Source of the DNA: an uncultured bacterium
Lineage (GTDB): Bacteria; Patescibacteriota; Minisyncoccia; Phycocordibacterales; UBA2100
DNA: 59,449 nucleotides
Reading direction: 5' to 3'
Assembly: GCA_903854215.1 (NCBI GenBank)
Contig: CAINVT010000058.1
Coordinates: 1-59,449 of the forward strand
Part shown: in pieces, positions 6,617 to 13,093 of the stretch
How the letters are laid out: every line of letters begins with the position of its first letter
Numbering within the stretch: the first letter of the stretch is position 1
The notes under the pieces: generated by a model
The model's database searches: none
What the model saw: the letters and a program-made list of their open reading frames with translations, nothing else
What the model was told of the DNA's origin: nothing
Made by a program: the position numbers and the translations under genes

Positions 6617-7057
6617 CTATCCGACGCGAGTTGGTTTTGTCTTTGCATTCCGTGATAACCACCAGTATTTCCAGGCGATGACGATGACGCTTATAATGAC
6701 AAAAACTTTTTGCATCAAGTCGGTCATTTCGGTTCGGTCGGGGGTGAGGAATGCAGGCATTACCGGAGAAGTAACAATAAGCAATAACGCTACTACTGCG
6801 ACCAATCCGGTAACTTTCCACCAAGTGGCAAAAACTTCTTTACGAACAAATATTAAGACGAAGAAAAGTAGTGGCAACCAACGGATACTCCAGTAAAGAG
6901 GCTTTCCAATCCCAAAGTCAATTGACTCACTCAAACAATTTGCATTCAAGTTTTTTGGACACAAACCAATTAGGTCAGGATGAAGGAGAAAATACCCGAG
7001 CGGTATTGCCGCCAGAGATACTGCACAGAGCATGATTGAAATGACTCGATGACTCAT
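6617..7057 (-). CDS. Hypothetical membrane protein
   Basis: Several hydrophobic segments; overlaps the upstream LCAT-like gene by 4 nt (ATGA). Confidence 0.65.
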   Translation of the reverse strand: MSHRVISIMLCAVSLAAIPLGYFLLHPDLIGLCPKNLNANCLSESIDFGIGKPLYWSIRWLPLLFFVLIFVRKEVFATWWKVTGLVAVVALLLIVTSPVMPAFLTPDRTEMTDLMQKVFVIISVIVIAWKYWWLSRNAKTKPTRVG

Positions 7058-9846
7058 AGTTTTGTTCCCACCAATACCTTCAACTCCTCAATCATACCAA
7101 GAATTTGAGTGCCTTGGGCCGGTGTGATCTGTTCTACCTTCATCAGCAACTTCGGCTTCGACTTGGTAACTTCGTTCTCAACATACGTTTCGATCAGATT
7201 CAACTTGCGCAAAACCCGCGTCTTCACTACGTCTTTTGTATTGGTGTCTTTCAGATCTCCATCATCATTGTTCCATTGCGTGCTCTTACCAATGAGATAG
7301 CTGGCATTCATGATCTTCGCCTCGAGTTGGATCTTCACCAAGAGCCCGAGATCCATGCCAAGAATATCCGTGAACATCAGCTTCGCATATGCGGCAGGAT
7401 CGGTAAGCTGCGCAGATGATGATATCGTCATGTCGGTCTTGCCATCACCATTCTCATCGACCACGAGCGATGTCGCTGTAGGGTTTGTACTATTGAGACT
7501 TATGGCAACCGTGCTCGAAGCAGTGACCGGAATCCCACTGAAGGTTACCGGTATCGTCGCTACCCCACCGGAGACCGGCGTGACCTCGAAGGTGAACGTC
7601 CCTGTGTCGGTGCCATGCAGTTTGACATTGTAAACGCCGTTTGCAGGCAGCCCGATGTATTGTCCTTCTCCATATCGTTGGTAGTAACTTCCGGGAATCT
7701 GCTCTTCGACATACAGGTCGTCTGATTGCGGATTAGGATTTGGTGCCAGTCCGGTGTGATTGCCTTGGGCATCATAGACATCAAGCGACACCGGCGAGAG
7801 GACGCGGAGACGTAAGCTTTTGGTTAGCGAAGTAGGAGTAGGTTCCACCGAAGTTACATATAATGATGATAGTTGTGGAGAAGACGAAGCTATCAGTTGA
7901 CTGAATAGATCTTCAAAAATTTGTGTTTCCGTGATATTCGCGTGATTAAAGTTTGTGTGTTTATCATTGTTAATTTTATTTACATTTATGTAGTAAGTTT
8001 GCCACGCCGTCGTCGCCACCTGGCTTGGGATTACGACAGTCCCATCTCCATCTTCAGTCATATTTACAATGTGACGTGGATCTACCACTGTCTCACATGA
8101 TCCATTTTGACATTGCGCGTGAGCCACTTCAGAGTATGTGACTTCAGACGGCGTATCGATTCCCCATCCGGCAATCTGTATTACTTGCACTCCGACAGGC
8201 GGTACCCACGAATCTAGATTCGCATGAAGTGTAGCTGCGCTCGTCAGAAGTTTTGACGAAAGCACATCAGGTGTTTCTGTATCGAGGAATACTGGTTTCT
8301 TGCGTCCACCAGCACCGGTAATGAAGCTGGCAAGTTGTGTTGAATTTGTGATGGTCGGTGTGGATATCCCGGCAGTCGATTTGAGTGTCGGGGCGTTAGA
8401 GAGGTCAACAACGGGCGTCGCAACCTTTGTAAAGTATGCTGCGGATGGCAAGAGATCGTACGCGTCGGGCATATTCTCGGCAAGTCCGCGCGCAGTAGAA
8501 AGCGACGCCATAAATCCTTTCGACTCGGGAATATCCTGAAAATCTCCATGCAGCATTGACGCTATTGCTTTCGGCGTACCGGTCTGCGGCACGTCGACGA
8601 AGATTATTTTGTCGACAAGATTGGATTGGCCTTCGGATTGCAATTTTATCATGAGAGCCTTCGTGATGAGGCCTCCATTGGAATGTGCGACAATCGTCAC
8701 CTTGCCGGTTTTCGATGTCTTTGCGAGCAATATGAGTTCCTGATCGAGATAATGTGTCCCATCATCGTACTGTGTGCCCTTATTAACTACGTCGTCCGGA
8801 CTCATACGCCAGTCATAGGGAAATACGAGGTAATCACTAATCGAACTGCTCACCTTGAGACCCGCAAGCTGCGCCAGAAATGATTTGTAAATATTGTCTG
8901 CGTAATAGGTGTACCCCGCGATAATAGGCGCGCCTTCTGTATCAATCGCTGCATTCGTCTTTGTATAAATGTGGTTGATACTCGCACCACTACTATCAAG
9001 GTACAAGGATTTTACATCGGCCTGATTACTTAAAAAACCTGGTTCCCAAAGTTGGTGTTCCGTACTGCCAGTCAATGTGTACAAACGGCTCGATTCGACA
9101 CCAGGAATAAACAAGACATTCGATTCGCAATTCTTCGAACACGACGCGGTCGCTGCGCCGGCGACATAGTTGAATGAGATTTGTGAAATCCAAGTGATCG
9201 GGAAATTCATGTTTGGGTCATAGGGATCGGCGAACCAGTGCGCGATATCCGCATCGGTGGTCGGGCGGTCGATGCCGGTATCCGTAATCGGATCGTAGAT
9301 ACCGATCGTCGTCGGGAAGTATCCGGCGACAATCGTATAGGTATCTGAAGGGGTGGAAGCGTTGCCGAATGCCGGCAAATTGAATGTGACATGATTCGTC
9401 GTTACTTGCTTAATCGGGGCGGGAGCATCCACCACGGAATAATTCCCCCCTGATACCGCATCACCTCCTTCCAAATTTCCGTAGGTACCGCGGAATATTC
9501 CGTAGAATCCCTGCGTACCTGATGGCTGGCTGTTCGCCGGCTTGAGAATCGTAACGTCCCAATCACCGTTAATGGAATTGAGATCTGCACCATTGACGGT
9601 GACTAGCGGAGTAACGAATGTATCATTAACGGTGACACCGGCATGACTCGCAGAGAGCCATGGTTTTGGAGCAAGGATAATATCTGCATATGTTTTAGTG
9701 GTAGGTACGAACAAACAGAAAAGCACAACGAGCGACGCGGCGACAAAAGCCGCCGCGTCTGCTCCGCGCACATTTGAAATCGAAATGCCTGACCCCAAAG
9801 CATTTACATCTACGCTTGACCCCAGAGCGTTGTTCATATGTGACAC
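7054..9846 (-). CDS. Secreted LCAT/PGAP1-like alpha/beta-hydrolase with extra C-terminal domains
   Basis: VLFIPGVESSRLY, FPYDWRMS, and nucleophile elbow VAHSNGGLITKALM; N-terminal signal/TM segment. Confidence 0.75.
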   Translation of the reverse strand: MSHMNNALGSSVDVNALGSGISISNVRGADAAAFVAASLVVLFCLFVPTTKTYADIILAPKPWLSASHAGVTVNDTFVTPLVTVNGADLNSINGDWDVTILKPANSQPSGTQGFYGIFRGTYGNLEGGDAVSGGNYSVVDAPAPIKQVTTNHVTFNLPAFGNASTPSDTYTIVAGYFPTTIGIYDPITDTGIDRPTTDADIAHWFADPYDPNMNFPITWISQISFNYVAGAATASCSKNCESNVLFIPGVESSRLYTLTGSTEHQLWEPGFLSNQADVKSLYLDSSGASINHIYTKTNAAIDTEGAPIIAGYTYYADNIYKSFLAQLAGLKVSSSISDYLVFPYDWRMSPDDVVNKGTQYDDGTHYLDQELILLAKTSKTGKVTIVAHSNGGLITKALMIKLQSEGQSNLVDKIIFVDVPQTGTPKAIASMLHGDFQDIPESKGFMASLSTARGLAENMPDAYDLLPSAAYFTKVATPVVDLSNAPTLKSTAGISTPTITNSTQLASFITGAGGRKKPVFLDTETPDVLSSKLLTSAATLHANLDSWVPPVGVQVIQIAGWGIDTPSEVTYSEVAHAQCQNGSCETVVDPRHIVNMTEDGDGTVVIPSQVATTAWQTYYINVNKINNDKHTNFNHANITETQIFEDLFSQLIASSSPQLSSLYVTSVEPTPTSLTKSLRLRVLSPVSLDVYDAQGNHTGLAPNPNPQSDDLYVEEQIPGSYYQRYGEGQYIGLPANGVYNVKLHGTDTGTFTFEVTPVSGGVATIPVTFSGIPVTASSTVAISLNSTNPTATSLVVDENGDGKTDMTISSSAQLTDPAAYAKLMFTDILGMDLGLLVKIQLEAKIMNASYLIGKSTQWNNDDGDLKDTNTKDVVKTRVLRKLNLIETYVENEVTKSKPKLLMKVEQITPAQGTQILGMIEELKVLVGTKL

Positions 9847-9895
9847 GGATTATGCCACCAACGAAACCGCCCTCAAGAGGTTATCCACAAAAGTT

Positions 9896-10723
9896 ACCAA
9901 GCTCAGAGCTTGGTGATTTCTGTGGATAACTACAAAGCTCTGAGCTTTGTATATTCGGCATGTTTTTCGTGGACACGATGCGTTTCGGATTTGATGAGTT
10001 CATCGAGATCATCTTGTGCGTCAAAAAAATCGGGCAGCTCGTCGGCAAGGATGGCGCGTTCGGGACGTTCGTCGATATGGTCTTTGAAGCTCGAAAATCG
10101 ATATTCAGACAAGAATAGGCGCGCTTTCCTCGCGCAACGAATCCCCTTGTCTTTCCAATCGGATTGCAGAAGATCAAGCGGATTGAGATGCACGTAGGCG
10201 AACAGGTACCGAAAATACGATTCAGTGTCGATACGTTTGGATTGATATCTCCCCTGGAAAAGCGTGCCCGAGTGGTCATAGCGTGCATTGAAATACATCG
10301 AGTACGCACCGCAGATCTTTTGGAGAAATTGCTGGATCCCGTTGTCAGTTTTGGAACGCAAGACGAGATGAAAATGATTGGGCATCAGCGTGTACGCCAA
10401 AATGTCGACCAATGATTTTTCGCTATATTCGTGTTTGAAAATTTCCGCAAAACCCCTGCCCTTGAATCGTTTGGCGGAATATTTTGAGAGGACGTCCCGC
10501 ATCACCACGTGATCGCGTGTGTTGTACAGATAGAGCAGGAGTAGGAATCGCTCGCGATCTTCATCAGAAGTGAATATGTCATGCTTATGAGCACCGCGAT
10601 TGTAGACGTGGTAATTTTCTCCTTCAGCAAGCATCTGACCCCTAAGATACATCGGAAGATTGTAATCCTACAAAGCTCAGAGCTTTGTAGTTATCCACAG
10701 AAATTACCAAGCTCTGAGCTTGG
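9896..10723. mobile_element. REPtron-like element: RAYT gene flanked by inverted twin-palindrome units
   Basis: Left ACCAAGCTCAGAGCTTGGT-GATTTCTGTGGATAAC-TACAAAGCTCTGAGCTTTGTA (9896-9951); right end (10669-10723) is its near-perfect inverted copy. Confidence 0.85.
9930..10652 (-). CDS. REP-associated tyrosine transposase (RAYT, Y1/IS200-like HUH family)
   Basis: YHVYNRGAHKHDIFTSDEDRERFL, MPNHFHLVLR (HUH motif), SMYFNARYDHSGTLFQGRYQSKRI, YLFAYVHLNPL. Confidence 0.92.
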   Translation of the reverse strand: MYLRGQMLAEGENYHVYNRGAHKHDIFTSDEDRERFLLLLYLYNTRDHVVMRDVLSKYSAKRFKGRGFAEIFKHEYSEKSLVDILAYTLMPNHFHLVLRSKTDNGIQQFLQKICGAYSMYFNARYDHSGTLFQGRYQSKRIDTESYFRYLFAYVHLNPLDLLQSDWKDKGIRCARKARLFLSEYRFSSFKDHIDERPERAILADELPDFFDAQDDLDELIKSETHRVHEKHAEYTKLRAL

Positions 10724-10734
10724 CGTGTGGGGAG

Positions 10735-11466
10735 CTATTGGTATTTGGCGAGATCGGCTTTGAGTTCTGCTGCGTTGGGGTTGGCAGCGAGACCTTGTTT
10801 GAGCAGTGCGATGATCGTGGTCGTCGACTGCGGATATTGATTGGTATAGAGCGAAAACAAATCTTGATAGAGATACACCTGTGTCGGATTGTTCGCGATT
10901 GCAGCCTTGTATGCGGCGGCAGCTTGCGGATACTTATGGAGATAATTCGTATAGAGATCGGCTAGGTTGGCATTCGAGACGACATTGCTTGGATACAGCG
11001 CGAGCGCGTACTGCCAATCGGCAGCAGCGCCCGCATAATCCCCCGCTTCTTTTCGAGCATCGCCGAGTGTGATCCATGCATTGAAATTCTTGCTGTCACT
11101 TTTGAGCACAGCCTGAGCCTGTGTGAACTGCGTTTGTATCGATGACTGCAGATCGGTCGAGATTCCAGAAGTAAAAACGAGCGCCGCTTTGAAGTCGGGT
11201 GCCGCCGGTGCGTTGCCGGCAGATACGACGTGGATCGTGTAGCCCGCGTTCGAGGATGCGGACGTAACAGAGATTGATGCCGCCGGTGAAGCCGATGTCT
11301 TGACGGTCGTCGAAGTCGCACTCGTGGTGGTACTTGTAGCGGTATTCGAAGGAGTGCCCGGAGACGCCGGTTGCTTCGAGAAGTAATACGCGATACCGAT
11401 GAGTATGATCGCGACAATAATAATACCTCCGATGATCTGGTTACGTTTGTCCTGTCGTGGTTCCAT
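10735..11466 (-). CDS. Membrane-anchored TPR-repeat protein
   Basis: N-terminal TM (IIGGIIIVAIILIGIAYYF), Ser/Thr linker, TPR-like repeats. Confidence 0.75.
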   Translation of the reverse strand: MEPRQDKRNQIIGGIIIVAIILIGIAYYFSKQPASPGTPSNTATSTTTSATSTTVKTSASPAASISVTSASSNAGYTIHVVSAGNAPAAPDFKAALVFTSGISTDLQSSIQTQFTQAQAVLKSDSKNFNAWITLGDARKEAGDYAGAAADWQYALALYPSNVVSNANLADLYTNYLHKYPQAAAAYKAAIANNPTQVYLYQDLFSLYTNQYPQSTTTIIALLKQGLAANPNAAELKADLAKYQ

Positions 11467-11509
11467 ATGTCCCCAGAATACCACAGCTCGGGCATCGGGC
11501 AAAAGCGGC

Positions 11510-13093
11510 TTACGAAACCGTATTGCCAGTGCGTTTTTCTTCGTGATAATCCTCTTCGGAATTGATCGACCAGAGGGCCGACTTGTCGGTGCGACCGGCA
11601 ATGATATTGTCGACCGCCATCATGGCGGCGAGCATCGAATGATCTTGATTGTTGTATCGATGCATGCCGTTACGACCGATGAGAAAGAGATTTTCGAACT
11701 GATTGAAATGATCGCGTACGACAGAGAGTCGATCGTATGTACCGGTGTAACTCGGATACGCTTTCGGCTGCCGAATCACGACGCCGCCGATCACCGTACG
11801 ATCACGTAGCAATCCGATCTTCGCAAGTTCTTCACCGGCGAATGCGACAAGATCCTCGTCACGCATATTCCATAATGCATCACCTTCCGCACAAAAATAT
11901 TCGAGTCCGACCCAACCGCGTGATTGATCGGCAAGCAATTGCGGACTCCAATTGTTGAAAAATTGCACACGACCTACGTTGACCCCCGGTTCATGCACGT
12001 ACATCCATGTATCAAGAAATGGTGATCTGTCCGCTTCAACGAGCGGCGCATCAAGCAAAAGTCCGACCGTCAAAAAATCACGATATTGCAGGCCACCCGC
12101 AACGTCTTCGACTTCGGCCGGCAGATGACCGTTGAAAATCTGTGCCAAAAGACGCACGTCGGTCGTCGAAAAAACATAATCCGCATCGATGATCTCCGTC
12201 CCCGCTTTTGTCTGTACCTGCACGCTTGTAACGCGTGAACCCGCGCTTTCTATACCGACGACTGACTCACCCATGCGCACCTCGCCACCCTTTGATTGCA
12301 CCTGATCAGCGACACGTTCCCACAATTGGCCTGGTCCGTAAACAGGATATAAAAACTGTTCGATCAAGGATGTCTCGACGGATTTTCCCGCAAGTGGTCC
12401 GGCATGCAACAGCTTCTTGATCGCATGTGCGATCGCACCGCTCACCGAAAGACTCTTGATACGCTGCGCGCCCCACTCGGCCGAAAGTTCTCGACACGGA
12501 ACGCCCCAGACTTTTTCTGTATACGATTTGAAGAACGTCTTGTAGAGCTCAGTACCGAATCGATTGATGAAAAAATCTTCGAGCGTCGTCTCCGGCTTGC
12601 GTGGAAAAAGTCGCGACCACATGTACGTCCATCCGATCTTCACGACCTTCACGGGTCCCAGTTTGGAAAGCGTATCGAACGATAATTCAACGGGATACGC
12701 GAAAAGTTTGCCGCCGTAGAGAATGCGCGTCTTGCGCGGACGTACACGCAGGACGTTCTCACCGTCTGCCGACGATGCCATACGCATACCGTCCGTGAGC
12801 GCGCGCGTCGTGCGTTGATACGTGATATCGGTGCTTTTGTCGAGATCCAATTCGACCGGCAAGATCTCGCTCCACCATTTCATCACGCGATCCGACTTCG
12901 AGAAAAATCGATGGCCGCCGAGATCAATGCGATTGCCGTTCCATTTGACCGTACGCGAAATACCGCCGACGTATTCAGCATCTCGCTCGATCACGATCGG
13001 CTTGATATCGGTCCGCGTCAATAATTCATATGCTGCGGTAAGTCCCGCCGGCCCCGCACCGATAATGACTGCGATCTTTTTCTTTTCATTCAT
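11510..13093 (-). CDS. FAD-dependent amine-oxidase/UDP-galactopyranose mutase-like oxidoreductase
   Basis: [18 protein letters not shown]...[28 protein letters not shown]-terminal [21 protein letters not shown]. Confidence 0.85.

Follow-up and report, generated by a model that had tools for sequence, protein, structure and literature searches.

The stretch of DNA analyzed here (59,449 nucleotides, called the window) very probably harbors a REPtron, in which one resident RAYT (REP-associated tyrosine transposase) gene, vertically inherited, is accompanied by a cognate population of REPINs, non-autonomous short elements built of twin palindromes. This interpretation was reached because the gene is intact and under purifying selection, its flanks are cognate, the dispersed repeats are confined to genomes holding this RAYT clade, the repeated unit has sharp edges, and unit forms turn over between species. 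An earlier note on the window had proposed a REPtron-like unit, and this stands as concerns the RAYT and its cognate REPIN system. It is refined in two respects: the RAYT is resident rather than moving as a block, and the host belongs to the Patescibacteria and not to the Gammaproteobacteria. The window is contig C58 of a Candidatus Kaiserbacteria genome of 1.1 Mb in 73 contigs, designated G000. Its nearest named relative, judged by the transposase, is Candidatus Kaiserbacteria bog_1339 (Paceibacterota, Patescibacteria), designated G033 in the genome searches and L166 in the contig scans. The sister-species comparisons of locus and dN/dS given below concern these two species only.

The features of the locus are summarized in Table 1. 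The product of the RAYT gene matched Pfam Y1_Tnp (E=1.8e-11), in agreement with the intact IS200-like HUH transposase reading frame noticed earlier, and the Tyr of its YVHLNP motif is the predicted catalytic residue. When compared to NCBIfam models, the protein scored 42.8 bits with REP_Tyr_transpos versus 22.7 bits with the IS200 model, both values being under the respective cut-offs (80 bits for the REP model). The AlphaFold model (pLDDT 85.5) gave as its top PDB fold match 4er8, the structure of the REP-associated transposase of E. coli in complex with a REP hairpin (E=2e-6), followed by ISDra2, with a TM-score to 4er8 of just 0.61 on the target and an rmsd of 6.9. By both the NCBIfam scores and the fold match, this Y1 HUH transposase is closer to TnpA-REP than to IS200 TnpA. 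It displays the NH[YF]H, FQ and Y[IV]HLNP motifs of TnpA-Y1 subclass 2.1, which is the same as Bertels RAYT group 1, and on these motifs only it would belong to that class. A PHROGs search yielded no match, and an Rfam search yielded none above threshold.

Table 1. Coordinates of the RAYT gene, its flanking units and its neighbors in the window.
Feature	Positions	Strand	Remarks
RAYT-like Y1 HUH transposase	9930..10652	-	240 aa; NHFH (HUH motif), FQ and YVHLNP motifs
Left twin-palindrome unit (REPIN/BIME-like)	9897..9951		Overlaps the 3′ end of the RAYT gene
Right twin-palindrome unit	10669..10723		Inverted versus the left unit
Palindrome X, ACCAAGCTCAGAGCTTGGT	9896..9914
Palindrome Y, TACAAAGCTCTGAGCTTTGTA	9931..9951
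TTATCCACA, DnaA-box consensus sequence, left linker	9921..9929	-
TTATCCACA in right linker	10691..10699	+
Extra inverted linker copy outside palindrome X	9880..9894	+	Second TTATCCACA at 9881-9889
Neighbor, LCAT-domain protein	7054..9846	-	Outside the unit; in G033 the junction is likewise at its start
Neighbor, TPR protein	10735..11601	-	Outside the unit; in G033 the junction is likewise at its C-terminus

In G033, the RAYT gene lies at the same junction as in G000, between the C-terminus of the TPR protein and the start of the LCAT protein. The two RAYT proteins are 80% identical, with a dN/dS of 0.095 (dS was 1.3, so the ratio is approximate), and the value near 0.1 points to strong purifying selection. 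Because the locus is the same in both species, the gene is under purifying selection, and the family of units is dispersed, the RAYT is best interpreted as a resident gene, inherited vertically at a stable locus, rather than as a self-moving insertion sequence that travels as a block. Vertical inheritance at a stable locus and purifying selection, seen here in two species only, are features of RAYT/REPtron systems, in which REPINs have been described as non-autonomous elements duplicated by RAYTs, and RAYTs as vertically inherited (PMC8049555).

Concerning the flanks, the inverted two-palindrome units of about 55 bp described in the earlier note were found essentially as described. The units are 55 nt each, 98% complementary and 717 nt apart, and each consists of palindrome X (ACCAAGCTC-W-GAGCTTGGT), a 16-nt linker and palindrome Y (TACAAAGCTC-W-GAGCTTTGTA), X and Y being joined, as also described, by GATTTCTGTGGATAAC or its near-complement. 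The folding of all four single strands was far beyond that of shuffled sequences (z from -5.4 to -6.5; 0/200 shuffles as good). Two features had been absent from the earlier description. One is the overlap of the left unit with the 3′ end of the gene, where a hairpin supplies the codons for the C-terminal YTKLRAL and the stop. The other is the extra linker copy, which extends hairpin X into a hairpin with 25-nt arms over 9880-9930; the G033 end has a similar sequence beyond its last palindrome. The tetranucleotide GTAG is nearly invariant but is placed at the 3′ foot of palindrome Y, and neither GTAG nor GTGG was found 0-2 nt 5′ of the hairpin foot, a position that marks canonical REPs, not every RAYT flank (PMC6006769, PMC3733652).

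The palindromes are not restricted to the RAYT locus. The earlier note had made its reading depend on the existence of other copies in the genome, and 35 core palindromes were found in G000 at ≤1 mismatch versus 4 for the reversed control, a modest copy number. The search for exact cores, run in G000, G033 and 59 other genomes (same-genus ones included), gave 26 copies in G000, 57 in G033 and none in the 59 others. Most of the latter carry other RAYTs, the full-length ones among those listed being ≤53% identical to the focal RAYT, and G033 was the sole searched relative with a full-length RAYT above that value (80%). The palindrome family is confined to the two genomes that hold the focal RAYT clade, and the flanks were found in no relative lacking the transposase. 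Palindromes on either side of a RAYT, with further copies scattered through the genome, are characteristic of a RAYT/REPtron system.

Twins with a 36-nt spacing occur in G000 at both RAYT ends and on contigs C36, C51 and C68, the last three being full 57-bp units free of transposase. Considering the 18 distinct 36-spaced twin units of both species, their consensus was TACAAAGCTCWGAGCTTTGTAGTTATCCACAGAARTTACCAAGCTCTGAGCTTKGTA, with a length of 57 bp and sharp edges. Like REPINs, these are short non-autonomous units of two inverted REPs present in several copies. Further arrangements in G000 were a long form (spacing 116-117), a 64-spaced form, compact pairs spaced 20-23, hybrid singles, and nested composites with other palindrome families; the same spacing classes were seen again in G033. 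Among the composites, mosaic elements were observed in which the palindromes TAGGACATCSGATGTCCTA and AAGGTCCGACCTT, of other families, are nested between focal-family ones (G000:C73:20850-20922 and C35:15262-15370). Compact inverted pairs around GGGATCC were observed at G000:C13:24612, C31:3867 and C36:4991, those on C31 and C36 being bordered by A-runs and T-runs and resembling bidirectional terminators.

Unit forms turn over at orthologous sites. As seen from L299:9808-10816 and window positions 9897-10723, the RAYT end units are of the short form at both ends in G000 and of the long form at both ends in G033, as if the two ends had been converted together. The long form looks as if some 80 bp had been inserted into the linker box, with TTATC on either side. 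At another shared site, G000 has a single palindrome where G033 has a twin, and the ends of the single are hybrid, as expected from deletion between the two cores.

One copy of the unit is located inside a gene. In G000, folA (DHFR; G000:C68:11225-11767, L246) holds an in-frame REPIN unit at C68:11467-11521, encoding about 19 residues, approximately YQAQSLVPSVDTNKSLSFV, in a variable loop. Among 29 DHFRs of the same genus, encoded by genomes without the palindrome, the modal length of this loop is 10 aa shorter, and the folA copy is absent from relatives with a DHFR that is ≤69% identical. It was also observed that folA is adjoined by a RAYT of another type in at least six same-genus genomes (G001:C26, G003:C6, G005:C10, G011:C9, G014:C28 and G027:C21), which suggests a conserved neighborhood and vertical inheritance.

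The association of RAYTs with palindromes extends well beyond the window. RAYT-like genes were found in 45/60 relatives, with genomes of 0.4-1.1 Mb and up to 13 genes per genome. G000 itself gave nine RAYT-like matches, the next best paralogue being 44% identical and accompanied by different palindromes. In the Paceibacterota, the same palindrome was present on both flanks of 59 of the 94 RAYT loci of a first set, versus 0/86 control windows. In a second set, cleared of the loci of the first, the figures were 46/67 versus 0/67 controls. When pairs among 155 RAYTs were compared, the proportion sharing a palindrome core increased with protein identity, from 1-2% at <45% and 7% at 50-60% to 52% at 60-80% and 100% (7 pairs) at ≥80%; these pair counts are not independent, due to common ancestry, so the evidence is the trend and not a p-value. 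Such matched evolution, in which each palindrome type has its own RAYT, is again a feature of RAYT/REPtron systems. Within G000, the palindrome of the C41-type paralogue occurs in 9 dispersed copies (control 0) and the CAAGGT-type palindrome in 43 (control 5), and paralogue C13:40301 carries a GGAGGTTTAACCTCC palindrome pair. The copy at C73:6010 was dropped as a member of the focal family, as its counterpart in G033 is a CAAGGT..ACCTT hairpin, hence another palindrome family.

By analogy with characterized TnpA-REP proteins (PMC8266576), the RAYT would be expected to bind a REP as a folded single strand, to cut next to it by means of its Tyr and to join strands. It can be proposed that replication probably exposes the palindromes as folded single strands, in which form the RAYT would recognize them, that its Tyr would nick beside the palindrome, and that twin units could then be rejoined or copied elsewhere, leading to their spread or exchange, while the gene itself would stay in place, kept by selection. 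The earlier suggestion of a RAYT with twin-hairpin ends as a palindrome-spreading system receives support, with binding, cleavage, current mobility and any benefit to the host being presumed. Since a clean empty site was not found among the REP sites aligned between G000 and G033, present mobility is something we only infer. Most of these sites were occupied in both species, by a REP or by what is left of a degraded one; elsewhere, the surrounding genes differed or one flank only could be aligned. The search for an empty site by means of the neighboring amine oxidase met no synteny in six relatives. Besides this lack of a clean empty site, the points that speak against the REPtron reading are the modest copy number, the missing GTAG 5′ of the hairpin foot, the sub-cut-off score with the NCBIfam REP model, and the TM-score and rmsd to 4er8.

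Another observation concerns the linker, as TTATCCACA fits the DnaA-box consensus TTWTNCACA and is present in the linkers of both window units, exactly in 9/18 twin units and within consensus in 12/18. It is conceivable, if unlikely, that the REP linker serves as a functional DnaA box and that RAYT/REP ends of Paceibacterota recruit the replication initiator, so that REP processing is coupled to initiation or REPs titrate DnaA in very small genomes. Quite unlikely is the related proposal of a domesticated RAYT, with REPs that are now mainly DnaA-binding sites, their processing being tied to replication initiation or their copies titrating DnaA. In line with a DnaA role, and with the focal family excluded, intergenic DNA within 150 nt of other RAYTs contained 17 boxes in 18.7 kb (0.91/kb), versus 9 in 39.0 kb (0.23/kb) of other intergenic DNA (odds ratio 3.9, p=6e-4). 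The raw count near RAYTs (14 versus about 0.14 expected) overstates this effect, which the intergenic control brings to about 4-fold. The counts of TTATCCACA in the genus were the highest in G033 (36) and G000 (34). However, the sequence is enriched across G000 regardless of the family (34 versus 6 for the reversed control), with some 27 of the 34 sites outside it (e.g., L073, L086 and L089), mostly solitary and seemingly intergenic. It was also found in all 60 relatives, in most of them above the control count. The notion of the box as a specifically conserved element is weakened by the equal conservation of the whole GTTATCCACAGAA linker, the box being conserved no better than the adjoining GAA, and by the boxes at other RAYTs, which show no preference for hairpins (p=0.34). 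A domain search of the RAYT protein found no DnaA-type DNA-binding domain. The domesticated-RAYT proposal is compatible with the REPtron explanation, to which it adds a function.

It is very unlikely that the palindromes are regulatory or terminator hairpins of the host, with the transposase lying between two of them by chance or using them as insertion targets. Such a role would fit copies that are mostly intergenic and often near gene ends, the terminator-like character of some of the compact 20-23-spaced pairs, and the C36 unit, which in both species separates the stop of a gene from a tRNA-like sequence and seems more conserved than the DNA around it. Nevertheless, host hairpins would not be expected to be missing from 59 other genomes, including those of the same genus, nor to track RAYT identity across the phylum, nor to occur as the same palindrome on both flanks of most RAYT loci and of no controls.

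The least credible alternative, an ordinary IS200-like insertion sequence whose transposase and subterminal hairpin ends move as one block, would account for the intact Y1 transposase and its matched inverted ends, but conflicts with the single copy (the next paralogue having other palindromes), the shared locus in the sister species, the strong purifying selection on the gene, the palindromes dispersed without it, the twin-palindrome ends that are inverted instead of asymmetric left and right ones, and the weaker match to the IS200 model.

Compared to known systems, IS200/IS605 transposases (IS608, ISDra2) share with the RAYT the Y1 HUH fold and the expected recognition of hairpins, but the RAYT has no adjoining tnpB partner and no multiple near-identical copies of a whole element, is a longer protein at a conserved locus, and has inverted twin-hairpin ends. 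The nearest precedent is that of the RAYT-like genes with inverted-repeat flanks of Di Nocera (TIRtrons/TIRYT, Di Nocera 2013, PMC3733652), some of the flanks being self-complementary and some belonging to dispersed families. The TIR motif of TIRtrons is GGGGWSAS, whereas the present units are twin hairpins whose linker contains TTATCCACA, and cognate flanks are found phylum-wide. With TnpA-Y1 subclass 2.1 (Quentin 2018, PMC6006769), the likeness is in the motifs, a length of about 238 aa and a C-terminal extension beyond the core. This subclass was reported without REPs and with HTH or DnaA_C tails (PMC6006769), unlike most members examined here, which are flanked by cognate palindromes; HTH_23, HTH_28 or Bac_DnaA_C was found at the C-terminus of 0/16 members at E<1.

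Most of what is known of RAYT/REPIN systems comes from Gammaproteobacteria, and a link between the presence of RAYTs and larger genomes has been reported (PMC6006769). A search of the literature, the coverage of which left out most subscription journals, returned no paper dealing with RAYTs of Patescibacteria. What is new is the setting, i.e., reduced Patescibacteria genomes, many parallel RAYT-palindrome pairs and a motif class thought to be REP-less, and not the kind of machine. The many natural enzyme-palindrome pairs offer a means of testing the co-evolution of RAYTs and REPs, and why a reduced genome keeps them. As in the REPtrons of Gammaproteobacteria (RAYT or TnpA-REP plus REPINs; Nunvar 2010, PMC2817692; Bertels and Rainey 2011, PMC3116915; Corneloup 2021, PMC8266576), there is a single-copy, vertically inherited, REP-flanked Y1 HUH gene, with transposase-free dispersed twin palindromes, one palindrome type per RAYT, and the REP-bound E. 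coli enzyme as the best fold match. Unlike those REPtrons, the one described here has a 1.1-Mb Patescibacteria host with nine RAYT-like matches, another motif class, no GTAG guide 5′ of the hairpin, a low copy number and a DnaA-box sequence in the linker.
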